Translations under genes and position numbers: made by a program | Shown here: positions 1-34,787 of the stretch, one piece after another | Position numbering within the stretch: the stretch's first letter is position 1 | Layout: every line of letters starts with the position of its first letter | Notes under the pieces: model-generated | The model's database searches: none | The model's input: only the letters and a program-made list of their open reading frames with translations | What the model was told of the DNA's origin: nothing | IMG/VR virus record: IMGVR_UViG_3300006641_000088 | Location: 1 to 34,787 of that record | DNA: 34,787 nucleotides | Direction: 5' to 3' (one strand) | From: a virus

Positions 1-639
1 ACTGATAGAATAACGCTGTAGTTCATTTAGAACGCGACGGTAATCAGGAAAGTATTTAGTGATGACTTCAACTAATACTTTCTCATCAAACTCAACATTC
101 TCTTGATTCAGAATTTGCTTGACACGCTTCAGAAGAAGCGTCGCCATCTTTGCTTTCTGCCCATTATGTAGTTTGAAGTCAATTACAGTGCATCGAGAAT
201 GAAGAGGCTCGATGATTCTGTTCTTGTAGTTACAGGTGAAGATGAATGAACAGTTACCAGCGAACTCTTCAATCACACCACGAAACGCAGGCTGAGTTGA
301 ATTTGGATTCAGATAATCCGCCTCATCAATAATAATGACCTTTCGACCACCAATCAACGAAACAGAAGATGCGAATCCTTTGATCTTCGTTCTCAGAGTG
401 TCAATACCAGACTCATCCGATCCGTTGATCAGAATATAGTCTGCGCCGATTTCTTCGCACATTGCTTTCGCCACAGTTGTTTTACCAACGCCTGCAGTTC
501 CAGCAAGAATCATATTGGGGATTTCTTTTCGATCAACATATTGTTGAAATGTATTCTTCATTGTCTCAGGAAGAATACAATCTTCAACAGTCCTGGGTCG
601 ATATTTCTCGACCCAGAGTATTTGGTCAACATCATTCAT
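1..639 (-). CDS. gp44: Sliding clamp loader large subunit, gp44-like (3' end cut by window)
   Basis: AAA+ ATPase of the T4-type clamp loader, which opens the gp45 ring and loads it on primer-template DNA. I translated 213 codons before the window edge. Visible are an N-terminal LWVEKYRP motif typical of clamp-loader ATPases, Walker A GTAGVGKTT (about residues 47-55), Walker B VIIIDEAD (about 101-108) and an SRC motif (LHSRC) where the arginine finger sits. The start is the ATG at 639, preceded by CAGGA about 9 nt upstream. The C-terminal collar domain lies outside the window. It follows gp45 and the DsbA-like gene, and gp62 would be expected next, beyond the edge. The family assignment is firm. 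Confidence 0.95.
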   Translation of the reverse strand, partial: MNDVDQILWVEKYRPRTVEDCILPETMKNTFQQYVDRKEIPNMILAGTAGVGKTTVAKAMCEEIGADYILINGSDESGIDTLRTKIKGFASSVSLIGGRKVIIIDEADYLNPNSTQPAFRGVIEEFAGNCSFIFTCNYKNRIIEPLHSRCTVIDFKLHNGQKAKMATLLLKRVKQILNQENVEFDEKVLVEVITKYFPDYRRVLNELQRYSIS

Positions 640-908: not shown

Positions 909-1592
909 TCATTCTCCAAACTTAGAAAAACCTTGCTCAAGAGCGATCCAATAAAGGAGGCTTTCATCTTCATTTACAAACTTACAAACGCCACGAGAAG
1001 AAATCATAACCTGATAGTTGTCAGGAATAATCTTCAGATTCTCAACTTTGATAGCAACGGTGAACGGAGCATCAAATGCACCATCAACATCAATGCTCGC
1101 ATCATCAACGATTTGACCTTTGACGTCAGTCGCCGTGAGTGAAACGCCATCATCTTCACTTTCGCCACGAATCACAATGTTCGGACACTTCAGAACATTC
1201 GCAGCAGAGAAAAGGAAGTTCAGCGTTTCTGCACTCAGAGTGAATTGAGCATCAAAAGTATCAGCAAGCACTCTACGCTCAGGTGGAGCAAGAATCAAAG
1301 TGGGAGAAGTAAATCGCTGACGAATTTTCGCACGACCACTCAGACTATTGAATTCAAGAAACTCTTTACCAATATCAACCTCATTATCAGTTGACATAGA
1401 AAGCAAACTCAATGCTTTGTTGAGATCATAGATTCCAAACTCATGGGGAAACTTCTCAGCAACAGTCGCCTCAGCAAGAACTGCTTTGTTGGGAGAAATC
1501 GTGCGCAGAAGTTTCCCAGGCTTTACAATAATCCCTTGATTGATTGTTGAGAAATTTTTCAGAACTTTTACAGTATTATCAGACAGTTTCAT
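909..1592 (-). CDS. gp45: DNA polymerase sliding clamp, gp45-like
   Basis: Trimeric sliding clamp, 227 aa (T4 gp45 is 228). The N-terminus MKLSDNTVKVLKNFSTIN is close to T4 gp45 (MKLSKDTTALLKNFATIN), and AIYDLN/GIYDLNKAL and the ending WIALEQGF also match the family. In T4 the clamp tethers the polymerase, activates late transcription through gp33 and gp55, and binds the DNA alpha-glucosyltransferase. The start has GGAGG about 7 nt upstream. It has its own sigma70-like promoter (1620-1649), downstream of a modification operon whose dioxygenase and glycosyltransferase carry a possible clamp-binding tail. The stop overlaps the region of the next start. Confidence 0.96.
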   Translation of the reverse strand: MKLSDNTVKVLKNFSTINQGIIVKPGKLLRTISPNKAVLAEATVAEKFPHEFGIYDLNKALSLLSMSTDNEVDIGKEFLEFNSLSGRAKIRQRFTSPTLILAPPERRVLADTFDAQFTLSAETLNFLFSAANVLKCPNIVIRGESEDDGVSLTATDVKGQIVDDASIDVDGAFDAPFTVAIKVENLKIIPDNYQVMISSRGVCKFVNEDESLLYWIALEQGFSKFGE

Positions 1593-1649: not shown

Positions 1650-2252
1650 CAGTTTTTCAATTTCATTTTCTAGATCTTCGATACTCCCATCGTTGTTAAT
1701 TGTGTAATCAATTCCTTCAGAACCAATCCAAGCCCATTCACTGTAATGAACTTGAGGAAAGTTTTCTGCCATTACATTTAAATCGCGTTTCGTGTTTACA
1801 TCCATAGCAGGAAGATACCAGATTGGATCTGGACCTTTCTTGACTCTAATTATCATTCCACCATCTTCTTTGATCTTTTGAATTTCATTTGGAAAGCGAA
1901 CATCAGCAATTACATAATTCTTACTGTGATTCATTCTGCGGAACATAGAATATACCCAAATGTTTTCATCAAATACATCTCTTCCAGATTCAGTCCCCAT
2001 CAGTTGCAGCGCAGACCTTGGTGTGAATTCATAACCAAATCGATTTGACCACCAAGGATCTGCGCGCTCACGCCATCCACGAGAATAATCAGTGTCGCCT
2101 TCAAGCAGTTGACGATCCCAACCAAAGACAACTGATACTGCATCCTTCACAGAATTAGCAAAACTTTCTTTGACAAACCCACGTTTGTTTACGAGATAAT
2201 CAGCGCAGGTTCCCTTTCCGCTTGACATGAAACCAACGAAACCAAGTATCAT
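1626..2252 (-). CDS. gp1: Deoxynucleoside monophosphate kinase, T4 gp1-like
   Basis: Predicted dNMP kinase, 208 aa, giving dNDPs for DNA synthesis; T4 gp1 phosphorylates dTMP, dGMP and hydroxymethyl-dCMP. Seen: P-loop GFMSSGKGT at residues 7-15, ALQLMGTESGRDVFDENIWV in the region matching T4 gp1's MQALGTDLI, YVIADVRFPNE, and an ending INNDGSIEDLENEIEKLL close to T4's ITNDGSLEELFSKIKNTL. An open frame extends 40 codons upstream, but the internal ATG at 2252 overlaps the previous stop as TGATG and has AGGA 8 nt upstream, so I start there. The position after two glycosyltransferases suggests a role with modified nucleotides, but a general kinase is equally possible. Confidence 0.85.
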   Translation of the reverse strand: MILGFVGFMSSGKGTCADYLVNKRGFVKESFANSVKDAVSVVFGWDRQLLEGDTDYSRGWRERADPWWSNRFGYEFTPRSALQLMGTESGRDVFDENIWVYSMFRRMNHSKNYVIADVRFPNEIQKIKEDGGMIIRVKKGPDPIWYLPAMDVNTKRDLNVMAENFPQVHYSEWAWIGSEGIDYTINNDGSIEDLENEIEKLLPLCGLS

Positions 2253-3052
2253 CACATTGATCCTACATGTTGCGCGACAGCTGGCATATCTCCTGTAAAT
2301 GCGTATGTTCCGATATGATGAGTTTTCATCCAAGGACATAGCCAAACCTGACCGCCAATCTTTCTCCACCATTGACAGAACATATAGTCTTCAGAAAGAT
2401 AGCGCTCAGAAGCACCAGCATCAATATATGTGTCGAAAAATGCATGAATGTTGCGGGTTCCATCGAAGTTTTGCTGACCAACATGATCAGGTCTATATGA
2501 CTTTTCAGGATATGCTTCTTTAAATTTATCAAACACTTCGCGCTTAATCAGCATAAATCCAGTGCCAATTTCCATTACTTCAAGTGGTTCACCAACGCTG
2601 AATTGACTGGTACCAGCAACAGCATTGAATACATAATCGCCAGTCACTTTCTCAAGTTCTGCTGGTGAAATGTCAGGATTACGTTTAATTGCTTGGATAA
2701 CTGATCCCCATTTGATTGATTTCTTGGGATAAGGTCCGCCAATGATTTCTTTATCAAGAGCGAGAAGCGCAATTACATCTCTCGGATCAAACTCAATATC
2801 TGAGTCAATAAAAAGAAGATGCGTGAATTTATCAGCTCTCAGAAACTCATCAGCAAGATAGTTTCTCGCGCGAGTGATAAGAGATTCATTGAAGATGAAC
2901 GAGAATCGAACCTCAATACCATAACTGTTACAGACGCTTTGTAGATCGAGACAAGACTTCACATACATCCCATGAGCCATACCACCATACATTGGTGTAG
3001 CCACAAACAGTTTGTTCTTGCGCAGTTTCTCAACAGAAATTTCTAGTTGCAT
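2252..3052 (-). CDS. GT-A-fold glycosyltransferase (Anp1/family 2-like)
   Basis: 266 aa with the look of a GT-A glycosyltransferase: a KLFVATPMYGG beta-strand start, an N-ES-I-RARN stretch (residues 55-64), and LLFIDSDIEF with an acidic DSD (83-85) as the metal/nucleotide-sugar site. Similar proteins are common in marine T4-type phages and resemble Anp1-like mannosyltransferases (recalled). It follows the GT-B gene after 42 bases and overlaps the kinase start by one base (TGATG), so the four genes are likely one transcript. Unlike its two upstream neighbours it ends in AQHVGSM and lacks the LESLFG tail. It might extend a sugar already placed on DNA, or act on virion or host glycans. Donor and acceptor are unknown. 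Confidence 0.72.
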   Translation of the reverse strand: MQLEISVEKLRKNKLFVATPMYGGMAHGMYVKSCLDLQSVCNSYGIEVRFSFIFNESLITRARNYLADEFLRADKFTHLLFIDSDIEFDPRDVIALLALDKEIIGGPYPKKSIKWGSVIQAIKRNPDISPAELEKVTGDYVFNAVAGTSQFSVGEPLEVMEIGTGFMLIKREVFDKFKEAYPEKSYRPDHVGQQNFDGTRNIHAFFDTYIDAGASERYLSEDYMFCQWWRKIGGQVWLCPWMKTHHIGTYAFTGDMPAVAQHVGSM

Positions 3053-3094: not shown

Positions 3095-4423
3095 TCAACC
3101 GAATAGGCTCTCCAAAGAACTAACCACGTTCAACTTTTCTTTGAATCCGAAATGATCGTACCAAACTGAATCAACAGTATCATTTAATGACTCAGTGTAC
3201 TTGCCAGTTTTTGTTTCTGCTTCGTCAATAGCAAGAGAAATATACTGTGATGCGATTTCTTTGCGATCAAACTGTTTCACAAATTCAAAATTGTTTGAAA
3301 CAATTTCTTCATAATCAGCCTGACTCATTGACAGAAATTTATTGCAAAGATCACCGAACTCTTTTGGTGTTGCATCCCACGGAATCATAAGATAGTTCTT
3401 ATTTGGTTTCAACAAACCAATTCCTTTCTCATTATCAGAAACACCAAGATTACGAGCGATTGGAACAACACCCATAAGCATAGCATCAACCACAACACGA
3501 TTGAAATGTTCACCATACGTTTTCGACCATGAAGGATCTAGCAGAAATTTTACACGATTGAGAATTTCGTCGCGTTTTTCTTCAGAAACGAAACCAACAT
3601 ATTCCATTCCATAATCTAATGCATTCTGCCAGATTGGTTTTCCAATTCGATCTTCAGTTGCTTGCGGGTCACGATTCAATGTGCAATAGTATTCTGCTTT
3701 ACACTTATCTTTTGATGACATGTATGATCGTTCTATACCATCACCAGCAATAACAACTTGACCGTTAATATAAGGAACTGCAGCTACAAGATCATCAACA
3801 CGCTTCCAACGCTTGAATGTTTGAAGTGAAAAGATTGTATTTGTTTTCTTACCAAAAGATGTTTCTTGTTTCTTTGAAATGTCCTGTGGATTCAGAATCA
3901 AGGCACGAGGAATATTCATTGCTTCTGCTTGATTAAATGCGCTAGGATGAACGCAAGCAAGTGCTGTAATGTGTTTACGAAGATGATGAATCCATGGATA
4001 GTTCTTACGAAGATTACCATCGTGCACGATTACAATATGTTTCGCTTTCACCTCTTTGAACATTCGAAGCCAAGATTGTTTTCCTTCTGACTCCTGGCAT
4101 TTGAAACCAAAGATAGATTCCCAAATCACAATGTCATACTTGTTTGCTAGTTTAACAAATTTAGCCACATCGTCATCGTTGATGAAAGACAGGTAATTAC
4201 CACGCCATCCTTTACCCTGATGAACTGGAATACCAGTGCCGACGCCAATATCATATCCATCAGCGCTGTAGTCGTCAGAGAATTTGCCGCCAGTTTTCGT
4301 CGGACGAAGATAAACAAATCCAGTTTCGTGACCAAGATCTTTGAAACCAGCAATCAATTGCTCAGTATGTGAAATGATCCCACCGAAATTATTAAAGTCA
4401 TGAACAACAGTCAATACTTTCAT
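3095..4423 (-). CDS. GT-B-fold glycosyltransferase with possible clamp-binding tail
   Basis: 442 aa. The N-terminal Rossmann half starts KVLTVVHDFNNFGGIISHTEQL (glycine-rich acceptor loop). The C-terminal half has FKRWKRVDDLVAA (about 203-214), VIAGDG (225-229) and YGEHFNRVVVDAMLMGVVPI (303-322), the GT4-type donor-site region. The final residues are SSLESLFG. The last seven match the end of the adjacent dioxygenase except for S/T, but the proteins are otherwise unrelated. The start lies 3 nt after the dioxygenase stop, so the two are probably translationally coupled. T4 alpha-glucosyltransferase, also GT-B, is reported to bind the gp45 clamp. I infer that this enzyme glycosylates hydroxylated bases in DNA. 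A virion or host-surface glycosyltransferase is the alternative. Confidence 0.75.
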   Translation of the reverse strand: MKVLTVVHDFNNFGGIISHTEQLIAGFKDLGHETGFVYLRPTKTGGKFSDDYSADGYDIGVGTGIPVHQGKGWRGNYLSFINDDDVAKFVKLANKYDIVIWESIFGFKCQESEGKQSWLRMFKEVKAKHIVIVHDGNLRKNYPWIHHLRKHITALACVHPSAFNQAEAMNIPRALILNPQDISKKQETSFGKKTNTIFSLQTFKRWKRVDDLVAAVPYINGQVVIAGDGIERSYMSSKDKCKAEYYCTLNRDPQATEDRIGKPIWQNALDYGMEYVGFVSEEKRDEILNRVKFLLDPSWSKTYGEHFNRVVVDAMLMGVVPIARNLGVSDNEKGIGLLKPNKNYLMIPWDATPKEFGDLCNKFLSMSQADYEEIVSNNFEFVKQFDRKEIASQYISLAIDEAETKTGKYTESLNDTVDSVWYDHFGFKEKLNVVSSLESLFG

Positions 4424-4426
4424 ATA

Positions 4427-5749
4427 TCACCCAAACAGACTTTCAAGTGTGCTTTCTTTATGATACGCTTCTGGATGATATTTAGCAACCATTTCTCGAC
4501 CACCATTCAGCTCCAAATAATCATACCACTCTTTTTCGCTCCACATTCCAGCGGAAACGCCATTCCATTTTTTAGTCCAGAGTTTATGCTCTGAATTTTT
4601 CCTACGATCTTCAACGAATCTGTATCTTAGATTTTCATATTCCCAGGAACCAAGTTCAACCATTTTCTTTCTGAAGTAACAAACCAAAGAAACACGATCA
4701 GAAGTTGGAGACTCGAGAACGATGGGTGTATTACCATGAATGATTTCATGATTGTTTACCAGAAGCAAATCACCAGGTCTTACATTTACTGCGATACGAT
4801 ACTCAGGAAATATCAGATATCCCCCAGTGTAATTACCATCATTCGATAGAACAAGAAGATTACTCAGACCTGTATCCAAATCACCAGCATCACGATGAGC
4901 AGCAGTTCTGAATGTTTTATTCACTGTGACAGTTGTGAATACAGTCCCAGGAATAACAAACTTGGAATCAATTTTATTACATTCTTCTTTCTGTGCTTTC
5001 CAACGATTAGGAAGAAGTTCTCTGAATCCTCTACTCAATGTTTTGAGGAACGGAAATGCCATCTGAAACTTTTCATAGTTGTGTTCAGTGTAAGAAGTTG
5101 CACGACCATAAGGAATGCGTGGGTATCGATCAAAGTAACCAGCAATGCCAGAGTTTACTGGATTCGCATACGTCGTGTCTGAAATATATTTGTCAAGAAT
5201 TCTTTTTGCTTCTGCTCTGAGTTTATCAGTTGATGATACTTTTTTTCCTACTGTAGAAACCCACTCATCAAATTTAAATTCATCATCACCAGTTTCTGAC
5301 GCAAGCCAAACAAGACCACGAGTTGTTTCTTCGTTTTCGTACATCGCTTTCATTTCAGAAGCAGTTTGATTTACTGTTTCTTGTAATGATTGATTCGGTG
5401 GTTGATAAACTGTCGTGAGCGCTGAGAGTAACCTATATTGATATTCAGTTACCCATTCACGATTCAAACACTTTTCATCTTTTGGACCAGAAGCAAGACC
5501 ACGATTTTGAGATAGCGTAGCTGCTTCATGTAATCCGAGATATGCTTGACGCTGTTCTTTTTCACCAAAGAAATTTTTCCGAAACTTGAATGCGATTCGA
5601 TCTTCAGATAATTCGCTGGTTGAGAATCCAGCAACACCGTAGCAATCTGTATCTTCTTCGATCAGAACATCATAATGAGATTCATCGAGGAACTGACCGA
5701 GAAGATGTTCGCAGTCAAGTTTTGTATCTGCAACAATCACTCTAACCAT
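4427..5749 (-). CDS. TET/JBP-like 2OG-Fe(II) dioxygenase with possible clamp-binding tail
   Basis: 440 aa. A double-stranded beta-helix dioxygenase core lies at about residues 265-365: iron ligands H285 and D287 (AHRDAGD), GNYTGGYLIFPEY (305-317), RPGDLLL (324-330), distal H338 in HEIIHGNTP, and R352 in SDRVSLVCYFR as likely 2-oxoglutarate anchor. The H-x-D / H / R spacing (53 then 14 residues) is close to trypanosome JBP1 (H189, D191, H239, R255, recalled). TET/JBP enzymes hydroxylate 5-methylcytosine or thymine in DNA. About 260 N-terminal residues are unrecognised and may bind DNA. The protein ends STLESLFG. It is first in an operon with two glycosyltransferases and a kinase. GGAG lies 5 nt before the ATG. 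No DNA methyltransferase is in the window, so thymine or 5mC made elsewhere could be the substrate. A protein or small-molecule hydroxylase is not excluded. Confidence 0.72.
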   Translation of the reverse strand: MVRVIVADTKLDCEHLLGQFLDESHYDVLIEEDTDCYGVAGFSTSELSEDRIAFKFRKNFFGEKEQRQAYLGLHEAATLSQNRGLASGPKDEKCLNREWVTEYQYRLLSALTTVYQPPNQSLQETVNQTASEMKAMYENEETTRGLVWLASETGDDEFKFDEWVSTVGKKVSSTDKLRAEAKRILDKYISDTTYANPVNSGIAGYFDRYPRIPYGRATSYTEHNYEKFQMAFPFLKTLSRGFRELLPNRWKAQKEECNKIDSKFVIPGTVFTTVTVNKTFRTAAHRDAGDLDTGLSNLLVLSNDGNYTGGYLIFPEYRIAVNVRPGDLLLVNNHEIIHGNTPIVLESPTSDRVSLVCYFRKKMVELGSWEYENLRYRFVEDRRKNSEHKLWTKKWNGVSAGMWSEKEWYDYLELNGGREMVAKYHPEAYHKESTLESLFG

Positions 5750-6137: not shown

Positions 6138-7340
6138 TTAGAAAGCATTCGTCGGTTCGGTGGTTTCACCCTCGGCAGGGGCAGGCTGCTCACCATGAGC
6201 ATTCTGGTCGACTTTGGTATACAGGTCAAGGAAAGAGTTCTTGGTATCCTCATCGAAGCGATTCAGACAGAGTTGAACTGCCTTCATTCGATCCTTGAAG
6301 ATACTGAATGCCTTCGCGATATGCACGAGGCGACGAGTAGAAATGATTTCGTTCACAGCACCAGTCTCGAACGAAGAACGGATAATATCCGCCCAGATCA
6401 CCAGTTTCTCCTCGAAATCTTTATCGGAACATCCAAGTTCAGCAAACACTTTCGAAAGAATTTTACTTTCGACCGTGTTACTAGGATACTCCTGCTCAAC
6501 TGTAATAGCAAACCTTTCTAGGAATGCTTCGTTAAGAACGTTCGCGCCGATGAAGCGACCATCGTCAGAACCTTTGCCCTTGGTGTTCGCAGTCGCGATC
6601 ACGTTGAACCCAGGCGCAGGATGGATGATTTCACCAGTCTTCTTGTCGAAGAATGGTTTGCCCTCGAGAATCGGCTGAAGGCAGAGCAGACGCTCAGAAC
6701 CATAGTCAGTCTCATCGAGAAGCAGAACCGCACCACGACGCATGGCGACGATTGCAGGACCTTCACGGCGGATAGTGTTACCATCGATCAGCTCATAGGA
6801 ACCAATCAGATCGGTCTCATCGGTCTCTCGCGTGATATTGACCCGAATCATCTCACGCTTCAGAGCAGCGCAAACTTGTTCGACCATGAACGTCTTCCCG
6901 TTACCAGACAATCCAGTGATATACACGGGATAGAAGATCTTCGACGAAATTATGTTCTTGAGGTCGGAGAAGAATCCGAACGGAACATAAGTCGAACTGC
7001 GCTCAGGGACGAACGATTCGCTGACGTTATCAGCAGTGCGCCGACGACTGGTCATCGATACTACCTGCTGAGGCGAAGTCTCAGCGACGCTCGCGACCTC
7101 AACGATCTTGGGCGCAGGCTTCACCTTCGCCTTGGTCGGCGAGTTAACGCTGATCGAATACCACCCACGAGAAACTCGACGGGTCAGGTCAGAGAAGATG
7201 AATCCAGGATTCGGATACCCATTGTCTTTAGCGAATTTCGCAATCACGGAACCACGGAGCTCCGCAACTTTGAACTCTGCCCGAAGTTGAGTCAGGAACT
7301 CTTCGCGAGCGACGGCGGAAGAAAACACAGTAGAACGCAT
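6138..7340 (-). CDS. cobS-like: MoxR/CobS-like AAA+ ATPase
   Basis: 400 aa. An N-terminal segment (about 1-62) may be a small helical adaptor, followed by a Pro/Lys/Ser-rich linker. The AAA+ core shows Walker A GLSGNGKT (143-150), Walker B VLLLDE (205-210), a sensor-1 region VIATANT (247-253) and an arginine finger in LERF (274-277). NVLNEAFLERF is typical of MoxR/CobS ATPases. It is paired with the VWA protein encoded upstream, as CobS is with CobT. In marine phages such genes are annotated cobS, but a remodelling ATPase acting with a VWA partner is as likely as cobalt chelation; no other cobalamin gene is present. G+C is high: 39 of 60 bases at 7081-7140. Confidence 0.85.
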   Translation of the reverse strand: MRSTVFSSAVAREEFLTQLRAEFKVAELRGSVIAKFAKDNGYPNPGFIFSDLTRRVSRGWYSISVNSPTKAKVKPAPKIVEVASVAETSPQQVVSMTSRRRTADNVSESFVPERSSTYVPFGFFSDLKNIISSKIFYPVYITGLSGNGKTFMVEQVCAALKREMIRVNITRETDETDLIGSYELIDGNTIRREGPAIVAMRRGAVLLLDETDYGSERLLCLQPILEGKPFFDKKTGEIIHPAPGFNVIATANTKGKGSDDGRFIGANVLNEAFLERFAITVEQEYPSNTVESKILSKVFAELGCSDKDFEEKLVIWADIIRSSFETGAVNEIISTRRLVHIAKAFSIFKDRMKAVQLCLNRFDEDTKNSFLDLYTKVDQNAHGEQPAPAEGETTEPTNAF

Positions 7341-7367
7341 TATATAAACCTCTTTCCAAGTCAGACT

Positions 7368-7396
7368 ATTATCGCCTATCTGGCGACAAAAGTAAA
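7368..7396 (-). promoter_or_regulatory. Sigma70-like promoter before the AAA+ gene
   Basis: TTTACT at 7396-7391, a 17-bp spacer and GATAAT at 7373-7368 on the minus strand, about 28 nt upstream of the ATG. The -35 box is part of the repeated element at 7391-7428. A small inverted repeat (TCGCC 7372-7376 / GGCGA 7382-7386) overlaps the -10 and spacer. Confidence 0.5.
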
Positions 7397-7428
7397 ATTA
7401 AAAAACTCATTACCAATCAATAACTTAG
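7391..7428 (-). repeat. 38-bp promoter-associated repeat, copy 1
   Basis: Begins 1 base after the stop codon of the VWA gene and matches 9628-9665 at 29 of 38 positions without gaps. Conserved blocks on the minus strand are CTAAGTTA, TGATT, AGTTTTT and AATTTTACT. A 7-bp central stretch differs completely. Both copies end in the -35 box of a promoter for the next gene. Confidence 0.7.
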
Positions 7429-7429
7429 C

Positions 7430-9580
7430 TCAAGCAGCGATACTTTGGGAGAACTTCTGAGCCAGGATCTTGCGATTAACCTTCGAAGACTGCTCACCAA
7501 CGAATTGCTTATAGATCTTCGTCTTTTCATTCCTATAAGGAATATTCTTTGCAGCAGCCTTCTCGCGATTGATCACCACCAGGTAGTATTGATCGAACCC
7601 AGCCAACGGAACCGAAGCATGTTGATCAACAGTCAGATTCTTCCTATGGGTGGAATCGTCGGCGATCAAACCTTGCTTCTTGTAGGTCCTCAGAACATTC
7701 CGAAGGTCTTGATCTTCGCCGATAAAGAATCCATAGAGATTGGTCCCAGTGACTTCTTTCAACCATTGAAACATGCAAGACTGGTGATGGGTGTTCGTGT
7801 ATTCATAATTATTTTTTTCTCTGAACTGAAACCGATCTTGCGTGATTCCATCCTGAATCTGAATGGTAGGAACATTCCAACCAGACCACCCGAATCGCAT
7901 ATCAGCATTACCCTCGCCATCAGTCAGGAAGATAGTATTCAGAACATCGACGCGATGCTTATCCTGAAACTCTTTCAGGATCTTGCGCGCAGCAACAATC
8001 GTCGGAATAATCGGCGTTGACTGCAGCGTCAGATACGTTCCATAATGGTCGAACCAATAACCTGACTTGCCGATATAACGATAGGACTCAGAAAACAGAC
8101 AAAGCATACGGAATGCATTGGTGTAATCTTCGACACTCATCTCGCTGGTGAGAAACTCAACCAGATTCAGTTTGTAGTCTTCCTCGCGAACATATCCGAA
8201 ATACATCGAACGTTCGTCAGAAGGGTCAAAACGACCAATCCTATCATCAACCAAACCATCGCTGTAAAAACGGCTGTCGTTGGTGAAACCATAGACTTTG
8301 AACGGAATGTTAACTTTCTTACAGAACGACGCGAGAACCAGGACCTGCTGAACTGCATAGTTCATACGGTGACCGCGCATCGATGCTGACATATCCAGGA
8401 ACATCACCATTCCGTGGGATTTGCCCTTAGCAACTCGCGTCACCTTGCGGAAGATGTCGTTCGTGAACTTATACTTCGCGAGGTTGCGAGTATCAAGTTC
8501 ACCAGTCTTCGCAGTCAGCGAGCGAGTATACTGGCTGGCGTTTTTGCGCATCTCGAATTCCTGGACGAGAAGCGCAATGTAGTTGCGATACTCTTTCAAG
8601 AATCCAGTTACTGATTCCTTTTCAATTTCGTCAACGTTGAAGTCTTTCAGCGCATGCCGATACTCATCATATACCTTCTTAGAGGGAATGATGATTTTGT
8701 CAAGATTGACTTTCGGAGTGTGAAGGACAGCCATTGCTTTAGAACCACCAGCGACCAGCTGCGATTCCATCTCACGGAACACTTCATCAGTCACTGACGT
8801 CGGGTTGAAATCGCTTTCACAAGCAACTTCGTTTTCGTCAGTTTCGTCATCCGTTTCGGCGTCGTCGAACTCACCCTCGTCGTCAGCCATGACGCTGGGT
8901 TGATCTTGGGTCGCCTCAGACTCCATCTCATCCTGTTCTTCATCATCAGAATCGTCAGACGAATCTTCAATGAAGTCGCGCAGTTCAGCAACGTTCTGAA
9001 TCTTGTCTTCTTCTTTTTGCTGAACATAGTCGTAGATTTCAGAAGCAAGAGTCACGACCTGTTCCCAGGTCTCGATTACATCAAGACGGGACAGGAACCG
9101 AGTTTCCTCTTCCTTCGAAAACCGAACGAAGATGAGGTGCCCGAGTTTGTACTTGATATTGATACGATCGATCAGATTGAGATCGTCAATATTCTTTAGC
9201 TTCTTCACGCCGAAGTAATCGCGCTCGTGGAGTTGCTTATAACCTTCAGCGAAGGAACGCCCAAGACCAGGATACCGACGACGCTGAAGGCGATCGGTGC
9301 GAACGTCCTCAACGACGTTCAGGAACGTCTTGAAGTTGGGGCGAGGGTCAGTCGTCACCGAAGTATGCCAACCATCAGCTGGCGTATTCAGTGCGTGACC
9401 AACTTCGTGCCCCATGATCGCGTCGTACAGGTCGCCGCTCATCTCTTTCCAGACTGGGCAAACAAGTTTACGATCTTGGGGACTGAAATAGGGGATATTG
9501 ACGCTGTTGTCATGAACCACGTCAATATTTTCTACCGCCATCAGCTTGGCGAGAAGCGATTTACTTTCTACTATAGCCAT
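7430..9580 (-). CDS. cobT-like: CobT-like VWA protein with N-terminal HExxH metallopeptidase motif
   Basis: 716 aa. N-terminal part: IMGHEVGHALNTP with HExxH at 58-62, followed by NVVEDVRTDR (88-97), which could give the third zinc ligand, as in metallopeptidase-like CobT/VWA proteins. A very acidic linker (about 203-257, mostly D/E/S) is typical of CobT. The C-terminal von Willebrand A domain has MIDAS residues D396-S398-S400 in MVMFLDMSASMRG and a later FLTDGEGNADM. It is upstream of the AAA+ gene, with its own copy of the shared promoter element. AAA+/VWA pairs work as chaperone-like complexes that remodel or metallate partners; the HExxH suggests proteolysis is possible. Target unknown. 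Confidence 0.85.
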   Translation of the reverse strand: MAIVESKSLLAKLMAVENIDVVHDNSVNIPYFSPQDRKLVCPVWKEMSGDLYDAIMGHEVGHALNTPADGWHTSVTTDPRPNFKTFLNVVEDVRTDRLQRRRYPGLGRSFAEGYKQLHERDYFGVKKLKNIDDLNLIDRINIKYKLGHLIFVRFSKEEETRFLSRLDVIETWEQVVTLASEIYDYVQQKEEDKIQNVAELRDFIEDSSDDSDDEEQDEMESEATQDQPSVMADDEGEFDDAETDDETDENEVACESDFNPTSVTDEVFREMESQLVAGGSKAMAVLHTPKVNLDKIIIPSKKVYDEYRHALKDFNVDEIEKESVTGFLKEYRNYIALLVQEFEMRKNASQYTRSLTAKTGELDTRNLAKYKFTNDIFRKVTRVAKGKSHGMVMFLDMSASMRGHRMNYAVQQVLVLASFCKKVNIPFKVYGFTNDSRFYSDGLVDDRIGRFDPSDERSMYFGYVREEDYKLNLVEFLTSEMSVEDYTNAFRMLCLFSESYRYIGKSGYWFDHYGTYLTLQSTPIIPTIVAARKILKEFQDKHRVDVLNTIFLTDGEGNADMRFGWSGWNVPTIQIQDGITQDRFQFREKNNYEYTNTHHQSCMFQWLKEVTGTNLYGFFIGEDQDLRNVLRTYKKQGLIADDSTHRKNLTVDQHASVPLAGFDQYYLVVINREKAAAKNIPYRNEKTKIYKQFVGEQSSKVNRKILAQKFSQSIAA

Positions 9581-33966: not shown

Positions 33967-34787
33967 TTAATATCTATTTATTAGATCAAACAATTTCAAT
34001 TCTACCGCATCTAATCTATTTTTCAATGTATTGTTCTCTGCGATCAATTCTTTAATTGCTTCTACAAGCAAAGGAACAGTCTTTTCATATTGAATTGTAT
34101 AGTATCTATCATCGGCTGGTGCTGGTCTAACAGCTTCTTCCAACGCAACCAACATTTCTTGAGCCGAAAGACCAACAAATTTTCTATTGGTGTCGAATCC
34201 TAACCTTTTACCTTCTTCATTGAAATTAAAGAAGAATCCATTCAGTGATGATATACGAACTAATGGATTATCAATGTTTCCAAGTTTATTTTTCAGTCTG
34301 TCGTCAGAAGCGAATGCAGTAATATCGTTGTTTGCGAAAATATTGTTTGCGTATAATGTAGCGCTTGATGGAATAAATCTGAGTGAAGGTTCAGTGTTAT
34401 CTATCAACAATGATTGTCCACTACCAGCTCCAGCAACAAATGTTAAGTAATGAGAAGATGTCGATGTGCTGGCTGCAACAGTGACTGTTGATGGTGCTGT
34501 TCCTGGTGCGCCTTGAGCGCCAGCTGCGCCTTGAGCGCCATCTGGACCAGGAGATCCTTGACCAAGATCTCCCTGAGCACCAGCAGATCCCTGAGCACCA
34601 GCAGCACCTTGTGCACCAGCAGCACCTTGTGCACCTGCAGCTCCCTGAGTACCAGCACCTTGTCGACCTTGCGCTCCTTGGACTCCCGCTCCCTGAGCAC
34701 CTGCTGCTCCTTGAGCACCAGCTGATCCTTGGCTACCAGCAGCACCTTGTGCACCAGCAGCACCTTGTGCACCTGCAGCTCCCTGAG
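33967..34787 (-). CDS. Collagen-like fibre with C-terminal S74 self-cleaving chaperone domain (5' end cut by window)
   Basis: The reading frame is open from the right window edge to the stop at 33967, about 273 codons. From the edge to about 34500 it encodes Gly-X-Y triplets, mostly GAQ/GAA. A short linker (TAPSTVTVAASTSTSSHY) and a beta segment follow, then ASDDRLKNKLGNI. S-D-D-R-L-K fits the Ser/Lys dyad (Ser, then Lys at +5) of the intramolecular chaperone (peptidase S74) of endosialidase-type fibres. GLSAQEMLVALEEAV and the final coiled coil (LLVEAIKELIAENNTLKNRLDAVELKLFDLI) also match. Release would cut before the Ser at about 34308. The true start is outside the window. Confidence 0.82.
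   Translation of the reverse strand, partial: QGAAGAQGAAGAQGAAGSQGSAGAQGAAGAQGAGVQGAQGRQGAGTQGAAGAQGAAGAQGAAGAQGSAGAQGDLGQGSPGPDGAQGAAGAQGAPGTAPSTVTVAASTSTSSHYLTFVAGAGSGQSLLIDNTEPSLRFIPSSATLYANNIFANNDITAFASDDRLKNKLGNIDNPLVRISSLNGFFFNFNEEGKRLGFDTNRKFVGLSAQEMLVALEEAVRPAPADDRYYTIQYEKTVPLLVEAIKELIAENNTLKNRLDAVELKLFDLINRY
33975..33982 (-). promoter_or_regulatory. Late-promoter variant (AATAAATA) before gp13
   Basis: Seven of eight late-consensus bases, 23 nt before the gp13 ATG and overlapping the last codons of the upstream fibre gene. The position is right for a late promoter of the neck-terminase operon. Confidence 0.5.
34500..34787 (-). repeat. Gly-X-Y coding repeats in the right-edge fibre
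   Basis: Almost pure GAQ/GAA/GSQ triplets with near-identical DNA units, continuing past the window edge. Short interruptions (GAGVQG, GDLGQGSPG, GAGTQG) shift the phase. Confidence 0.85.

Follow-up and report, generated by a model that had tools for sequence, protein, structure and literature searches.

The locus and its genes

The stretch of DNA analysed here (hereafter the window) spans 34,787 bases, is held in IMG/VR as virus record IMGVR_UViG_3300006641_000088, and belongs to a T4-like phage, with genes for gp44, gp45 and late-type structural proteins, nearly all of them on the minus strand. It is a fragment, and its own DNA polymerase gene lies outside. The features of concern are the following:

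1..639, minus strand: large subunit of a gp44-type clamp loader, truncated at the window edge (PHROG 168, E=2e-87; Gp44_lid)
909..1592, minus strand: gp45-type sliding clamp, proposed docking partner (PF09116, E=4e-8; PHROG 223, E=3e-60)
2252..3052, minus strand: conserved gene between glycosyltransferase and clamp, PHROG 1574 (unknown function); product ends in HVGSM, without a clamp tail
3095..4423, minus strand: GT-B glycosyltransferase (GT), 442 residues, probable DNA glycosyltransferase (PF00534, E=1e-7; AlphaFold2 model)
3098..3121, minus strand: C-terminal tail of the glycosyltransferase, SSLESLFG, proposed gp45-binding peptide (translation, tail profile, homologue alignment)
4427..5749, minus strand: TET/JBP-type 2-oxoglutarate/Fe(II) DNA dioxygenase (TET), 440 residues (PF12851, E=2e-24; H285, D287, H338, R352; AlphaFold2 model)
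4430..4453, minus strand: C-terminal tail of the dioxygenase, STLESLFG, proposed gp45-binding peptide (translation, tail profile, homologue alignment)

The TET and GT genes are adjacent, with a 3-base gap, and the start of the gp45 gene lies 1.5 kb downstream from the stop codon of the GT, the distance given in an earlier note on this DNA; the gp45 product matches the T4 and RB69 clamp structures (1czd, 1b77). In phage DLP6 the gene in a position comparable to that at 2252..3052 has a weak match to Anp1 (GT-A type, E=0.003). At the other end of the window (33967-34785) lies a tail fibre gene with a collagen-like GAAGAQ repeat, cut by the window edge.

The assignment of the dioxygenase is supported by a PF12851 profile match of 85.9 bits (cut-off 34.9), by an HxD...H...R set of residues (H285, D287, H338 and R352) invariant in the alignment, and by an AlphaFold2 model that matches CcTet, NgTET1 and human TET2. 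The GT matches only PF00534 and PF13692 in Pfam, with no match to PF11440, the family of the T4-type DNA alpha-glucosyltransferase, and the T4 enzyme (1ya6, 1xv5, 1y8z) is among the top structural matches of its AlphaFold2 model. Together, the two enzymes probably modify phage DNA. As to the base concerned, a PF00145 C5-methyltransferase was not found in 26 related TET-phage records (G001, DLP6, C48C1, Cr30 and 22 others), nor a T4 gp42 homologue in G001, and the base oxidised by these TETs could be thymine, in a JBP-like manner, or 5-methylcytosine made some other way. A methyltransferase of C48C1, considered as a possible member of the TET pathway, was rejected as such, being an N6-adenine D12 enzyme.

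Two unrelated enzymes end in the same tail

Translation shows that the dioxygenase ends in KESTLESLFG and the GT in VVSSLESLFG, while BLASTP found no significant match between the two proteins outside this tail, as the earlier note had described. Both tails lie at the extreme C-terminus, are hydrophobic and acidic, and fit the pattern [ST]L[DE]x[LMF][FLY]. Their LESLFG codons (CTT GAA AGT CTG TTT GGG in the dioxygenase, TTG GAG AGC CTA TTC GGT in the GT) differ at all six positions, always synonymously, so that this part of the note, too, stands codon by codon. A profile built from 13 tails of polymerases, gp33 and gp55, and from no TET or GT, ranks the two enzymes first and second among the 163 window ORFs (TET, 18.8 bits; GT, 16.8 bits), against a best background score of 13.1 bits in 19,481 internal windows.

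In the AlphaFold2 models each tail is joined to its catalytic fold by a flexible segment of low pLDDT. The last ten residues of the dioxygenase have a pLDDT of 60, with a short helix at 435-439, and the GT has a pLDDT of ~40-50 over residues ~410-442, of which 437-441 form a short helix. Such low-confidence ends containing a short predicted helix are as expected of a peptide that would become ordered on binding.

The tail resembles the clamp peptide of T4-type polymerases

Three T4 proteins carry C-termini of this kind: the polymerase gp43 (KASLDFLFG), gp55 (SLDFLYEAND) and gp33, whose TLDFLL end, cited in the earlier note, is indeed found in the T4 genome. The closest match to the window tails, the gp43 end SLDFLFG, had not figured in that note; it is near-identical to SLESLFG. 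The tails of gp43, gp55 and gp33, all established binders of the clamp, are interchangeable (PMC2988020), and cryo-EM places the clamp-interacting peptide (CIP) of T4 gp43 (892-SLDFLF-897) in an inter-domain pocket of gp45 as a single helical turn (PMC12746103). Related ends occur on the polymerases of T4-like cyanophages (STLEFLFS, ATLDFLFA, ITLEFLFA, NTLEFLFG) and of TET-bearing T4-like phages (ATLDSFFA in DLP6, AATLEDFFG in C48C1, ADLSSLFD in Cr30 and ETLDCFFS in G001). A tail matching that of the polymerase of the same genome was found in the relatives G001, C48C1, DLP6, L214, L284 and L361.

How selective the pattern is can be seen when [ST]L[DE]x[LMF][FLY] is sought at most five residues from the stop codon in every six-frame ORF of 60 residues or more. 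Among the 611 ORFs of T4 it retrieves gp43, gp55 and gp33 only; in the 197-kb relative G001 (857 ORFs), only the polymerase, the TET and the GT; in C48C1 (714 ORFs), only the polymerase, a D12-type (Dam-type) adenine methyltransferase and the TET; and in DLP6, the polymerase and one 60-residue antisense ORF. A looser pattern adds the TET (TLGDFFV) and a TAGT-family glycosyltransferase (DLSSFFN) in DLP6, and, in Cr30, the polymerase (DLSSLFD) together with the TAGT-like enzyme AGS81007 (DLSKLF); it also matches a few other ORFs, several of them antisense and probably due to chance.

Conservation of the tail and its association with gp45

The tail is kept in nearly all of ~60 TET and ~50 GT-B homologues of the tailed clade, down to ~60% identity, in variants such as STLEDLFG, STLDDMFG and SSLEDLFG. 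Its leucine and final phenylalanine are invariant in the 26 TETs and 25 GTs aligned, while neighbouring positions vary, and because the tail stays constant at ~60% identity while its neighbours change, selection is needed to explain it. This, with the six differing codons, bears out the earlier suggestion of selection on the peptide, with no recent duplication.

A gp45 gene is present in 16 of 25 contigs with a tailed TET and in none of the 24 with a tail-less one (Fisher p=8e-7), an association that is only a correlation, since many of these contigs are fragments. Phages HTVC112P, P12024L and S-CBWM1 (139 kb) likewise have a TET without the tail and no gp45. The earlier expectation that relatives would keep the tail, and that homologues from genomes without a T4-type clamp would be devoid of it, thus agrees with what is seen, and the proposal that both enzymes ride on gp45 gains comparative support from conservation, gp45 co-occurrence and the match to polymerase tails.

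The residues of the clamp itself did not discriminate. Of five hydrophobic pocket residues of RB69 gp45, three positions are still hydrophobic in the window gp45 (F109 is replaced by A and W199 by S); other aligned clamps also have no equivalent of RB69 W199, yet their polymerases keep the tail. Nor does the tail occur on every modification enzyme, a generalisation that was considered and rejected: it is wanting in the Cr30 TET, in most cyanophage Dam enzymes, in the S-B43 CmoX and in the Melnitz C5-methyltransferase, though gp45 is present or expected. The end of the Cr30 TET (KF301602 59353-60681), TGATLF, looks like a truncated form of the tail; the same phage has a gene for an amino acid:DNA transferase (PF18724).

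Tailed proteins across IMG/VR

Three tail-anchored patterns, of the form [ST]L[DE][DE][LF]FG followed by a stop, were run across IMG/VR, all counts below being among the matches listed. They yielded at least 356 distinct tailed proteins, of which at least 299 belong to the cluster of gp43 polymerases (at least 291 by direct match) and most of the others are DNA-modifying enzymes; a scrambled-tail control of equal information returned 10 stretches, only one of them in a long ORF. Among the matches listed are at least 12 TETs, at least seven GT-B and at least five TAGT enzymes, at least six proteins of another GT family, weakly matched by PF13524, at least three members of the T4 AGT family (PF11440), at least four N6/N4 methyltransferases (some with weak Pfam matches) and at least one Dam-type enzyme. 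The remainder comprise at least three endonuclease-like ORFs, a few proteins not assigned to a family and at least 11 short chance ORFs.

Several such proteins can share a contig. The polymerase, TET and GT-B are all tailed in L214 and L284, as are the polymerase and GT-B in L399, where the TET has a variant tail (ADLADFFA); L361 combines a tailed polymerase, TET and TAGT, and L229 a tailed polymerase, C5-methyltransferase and GT. Contigs with a homologue of the T4-type dCMP hydroxymethylase carry a tailed AGT or TAGT (L345, L406, L492 and L327). C5-cytosine methyltransferases and homologues with ends of a similar kind (NLEEFFA, QLDEFMV, QLTDFML) adjoin tailed glycosyltransferases at L219:2913-4145(-), L327:5530-6741 and L345:98-1294(-).

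Tailed or near-tailed proteins with no Pfam match are encoded at L289:5782-6795(-) and 6762-7859(-), L348:235-1323, L387:1761-3098(-) and L068:9838-10413 (in a Pfam scan covering all but the 365-residue L289 protein). With ends TLEEFFG, TLESFMQ, SLEEFFG, SLDELFG and TLDHMFV, they are candidate DNA-modification or replisome enzymes, and the tail may thus offer a sequence handle for unknown DNA-modification enzymes, for instance those of L289, L348 and L387.

What the tail is for

Taken together, these data make it very probable that the last seven residues of the TET and the GT are a gp45 clamp-binding peptide, which would couple modification to replication. The experimental binding of T4 alpha-glucosyltransferase to gp45 also counts in favour. 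On the other side stand the two pocket positions that the window gp45 does not share with RB69, the modification enzymes that are tail-less in spite of a known or expected gp45, and the fact that the T4 enzyme binds gp45 with no tail of this kind. Other explanations nevertheless merit consideration. All bacterial hosts have a beta clamp (DnaN), and its binding motif, QL[SD]LF, resembles xL[DE]xLF, so the tails might bind it instead of phage gp45. The tail is, however, the same as that on the gp45-binding T4-type polymerases, gp33 and gp55, and phages without gp45 have tail-less TETs even though a host beta clamp is available to them. We therefore regard binding to the host clamp as improbable, if still the best placed of the alternatives.

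A slightly poorer prospect is that the tail acts independently of any clamp, as a docking signal (a TET-GT contact, for example) or as a C-terminal degron. TET and GT are adjacent and have a common substrate, and protease signals can be short hydrophobic C-termini, though no result of this analysis speaks in its favour. The same tail occurs on DNA polymerases and other enzymes, and a degron on a polymerase makes little sense. Moreover, contigs L004-L020 keep the TET tail, with no GT-B or TAGT homologue found beside the TET.

The idea that the tail is a functionless passenger, carried between genes by recombination at their 3' ends (through gene conversion, or insertion at the 3' end of the polymerase gene), fares no better than docking or degradation, in spite of two observations in its favour. 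The first concerns endonuclease-like ORFs lying directly after the polymerase gene and bearing a copy of the polymerase tail (L234:4643-5458(-), L401:2166-2789(-) and L452:4583-5044(+); matches to GIY-YIG/SegE, T5orf172/MUG113 and, weakly, SinI), as if insertion at the 3' end of the polymerase gene had duplicated the tail. The second is the right breakpoint of a gene swap in L003, where the TET and the flanks are each 95% identical to those of the window and the GT-B is cleanly replaced by an unrelated TAGT-family GT (PF20691; 1955-2767, the window counterpart being 3095-4423) that ends in HTLEHLFG. The swap itself, in which a nonhomologous enzyme again bears the tail, speaks for clamp binding. 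Its left breakpoint is at the TET stop codon and its right one within the final 12 bases of the GT tail, so that a portion of the tail may have been the site of joining; the TAGTs of DLP6 and Cr30 have tails of their own. Against this explanation stand the six codon differences between the TET and GT tails and the constancy of the tail in families diverged to ~60% identity, which lead us to reject gene conversion as its origin. A chance likeness of two C-termini can be set aside altogether, given profile scores higher than in any of the 19,481 background windows, the tail's presence in nearly all relatives and a nearly empty scrambled-tail control.

A model for modification at the replication fork

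Under the clamp-binding reading, a short extension would keep the tail peptide outside the catalytic fold, and its leucine and terminal hydrophobic pair would enter, as one helical turn, the hydrophobic inter-domain pocket of a gp45 protomer. As the ring has three protomers, modification enzymes could sit on gp45 next to the polymerase or behind it, and new DNA would then be oxidised and afterwards glycosylated on leaving the replisome, with early protection from host nucleases as the likely benefit. Binding to gp45, this order of events and the benefit are what we infer from the sequence comparisons and models above, as is the coupling of oxidation and glycosylation to replication.

Beyond the window, it seems likely, though less firmly so than for the two tails themselves, that T4-type phages in general couple modification to replication by means of a shared clamp tail of polymerase type. 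TET dioxygenases, at least four glycosyltransferase families, and C5-cytosine and N6/N4 methyltransferases, though unrelated, would each have acquired or kept the tail, and gp45 would serve as a toolbelt at the fork. The ability of phages to modify almost all target bases ahead of host nuclease attack is usually credited to diffusion and enzyme levels. If the strategy is as proposed, the replisome itself would carry oxidising, glycosylating and methylating enzymes, these viruses would chemically disguise their DNA during copying, and the single case of T4 alpha-GT and gp45 would extend to several enzyme families. Clamp tails as such are already known. The open-access literature searched yielded nothing that connects the clamp with TET or GT tails, which is weak evidence of novelty, and no mention of tailed TETs, several tailed GT families or tailed methyltransferases; the literature found on the phage TET/TAGT pathway makes no mention of clamp tails.

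Comparison with known systems

The nearest known counterpart is the T4/RB69 CIP (also SCBM, PIP-like) of gp43, gp55 and gp33, with which the window tails share their C-terminal position, the pattern [ST]L[DE]x[LMF][FLY], a place outside the fold and a genome that encodes gp45. The difference lies in the bearers, which are polymerase and late-transcription factors in T4 and RB69, and DNA-modification enzymes, predicted from sequence, in the window.

T4 alpha-glucosyltransferase (AGT, PF11440) is likewise a GT-B DNA glycosyltransferase tied to the clamp, and its fold is among the closest solved to that of the window GT. Experiments report that it binds gp45, as the earlier note had stated, and found that clamp binding does not set the share of alpha-glucosylation or the alpha/beta ratio in T4 (PMC13216743). 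Unlike the window GT, which has no PF11440 match, T4 AGT ends in FKEQFDIITK, with no such tail, and must therefore bind gp45 another way; tailed PF11440 members do exist elsewhere (L416, L345 and L406).

Phage TET/TAGT hypermodification (PF12851, PF20691) employs the same dioxygenase family, and the adjoining GT slot can hold a TAGT, as in L003, whereas the window pairs its TET with a GT-B enzyme that has no assignment to TAGT. In eukaryotes, a short peptide tethers the DNA-modifying enzyme DNMT1 to the sliding clamp PCNA, and the enzyme acts on new DNA. The phage tails, if they bind gp45 as proposed, would form a parallel to this arrangement, one of analogy only, for the enzymes, the clamp family and the peptide are all unrelated.
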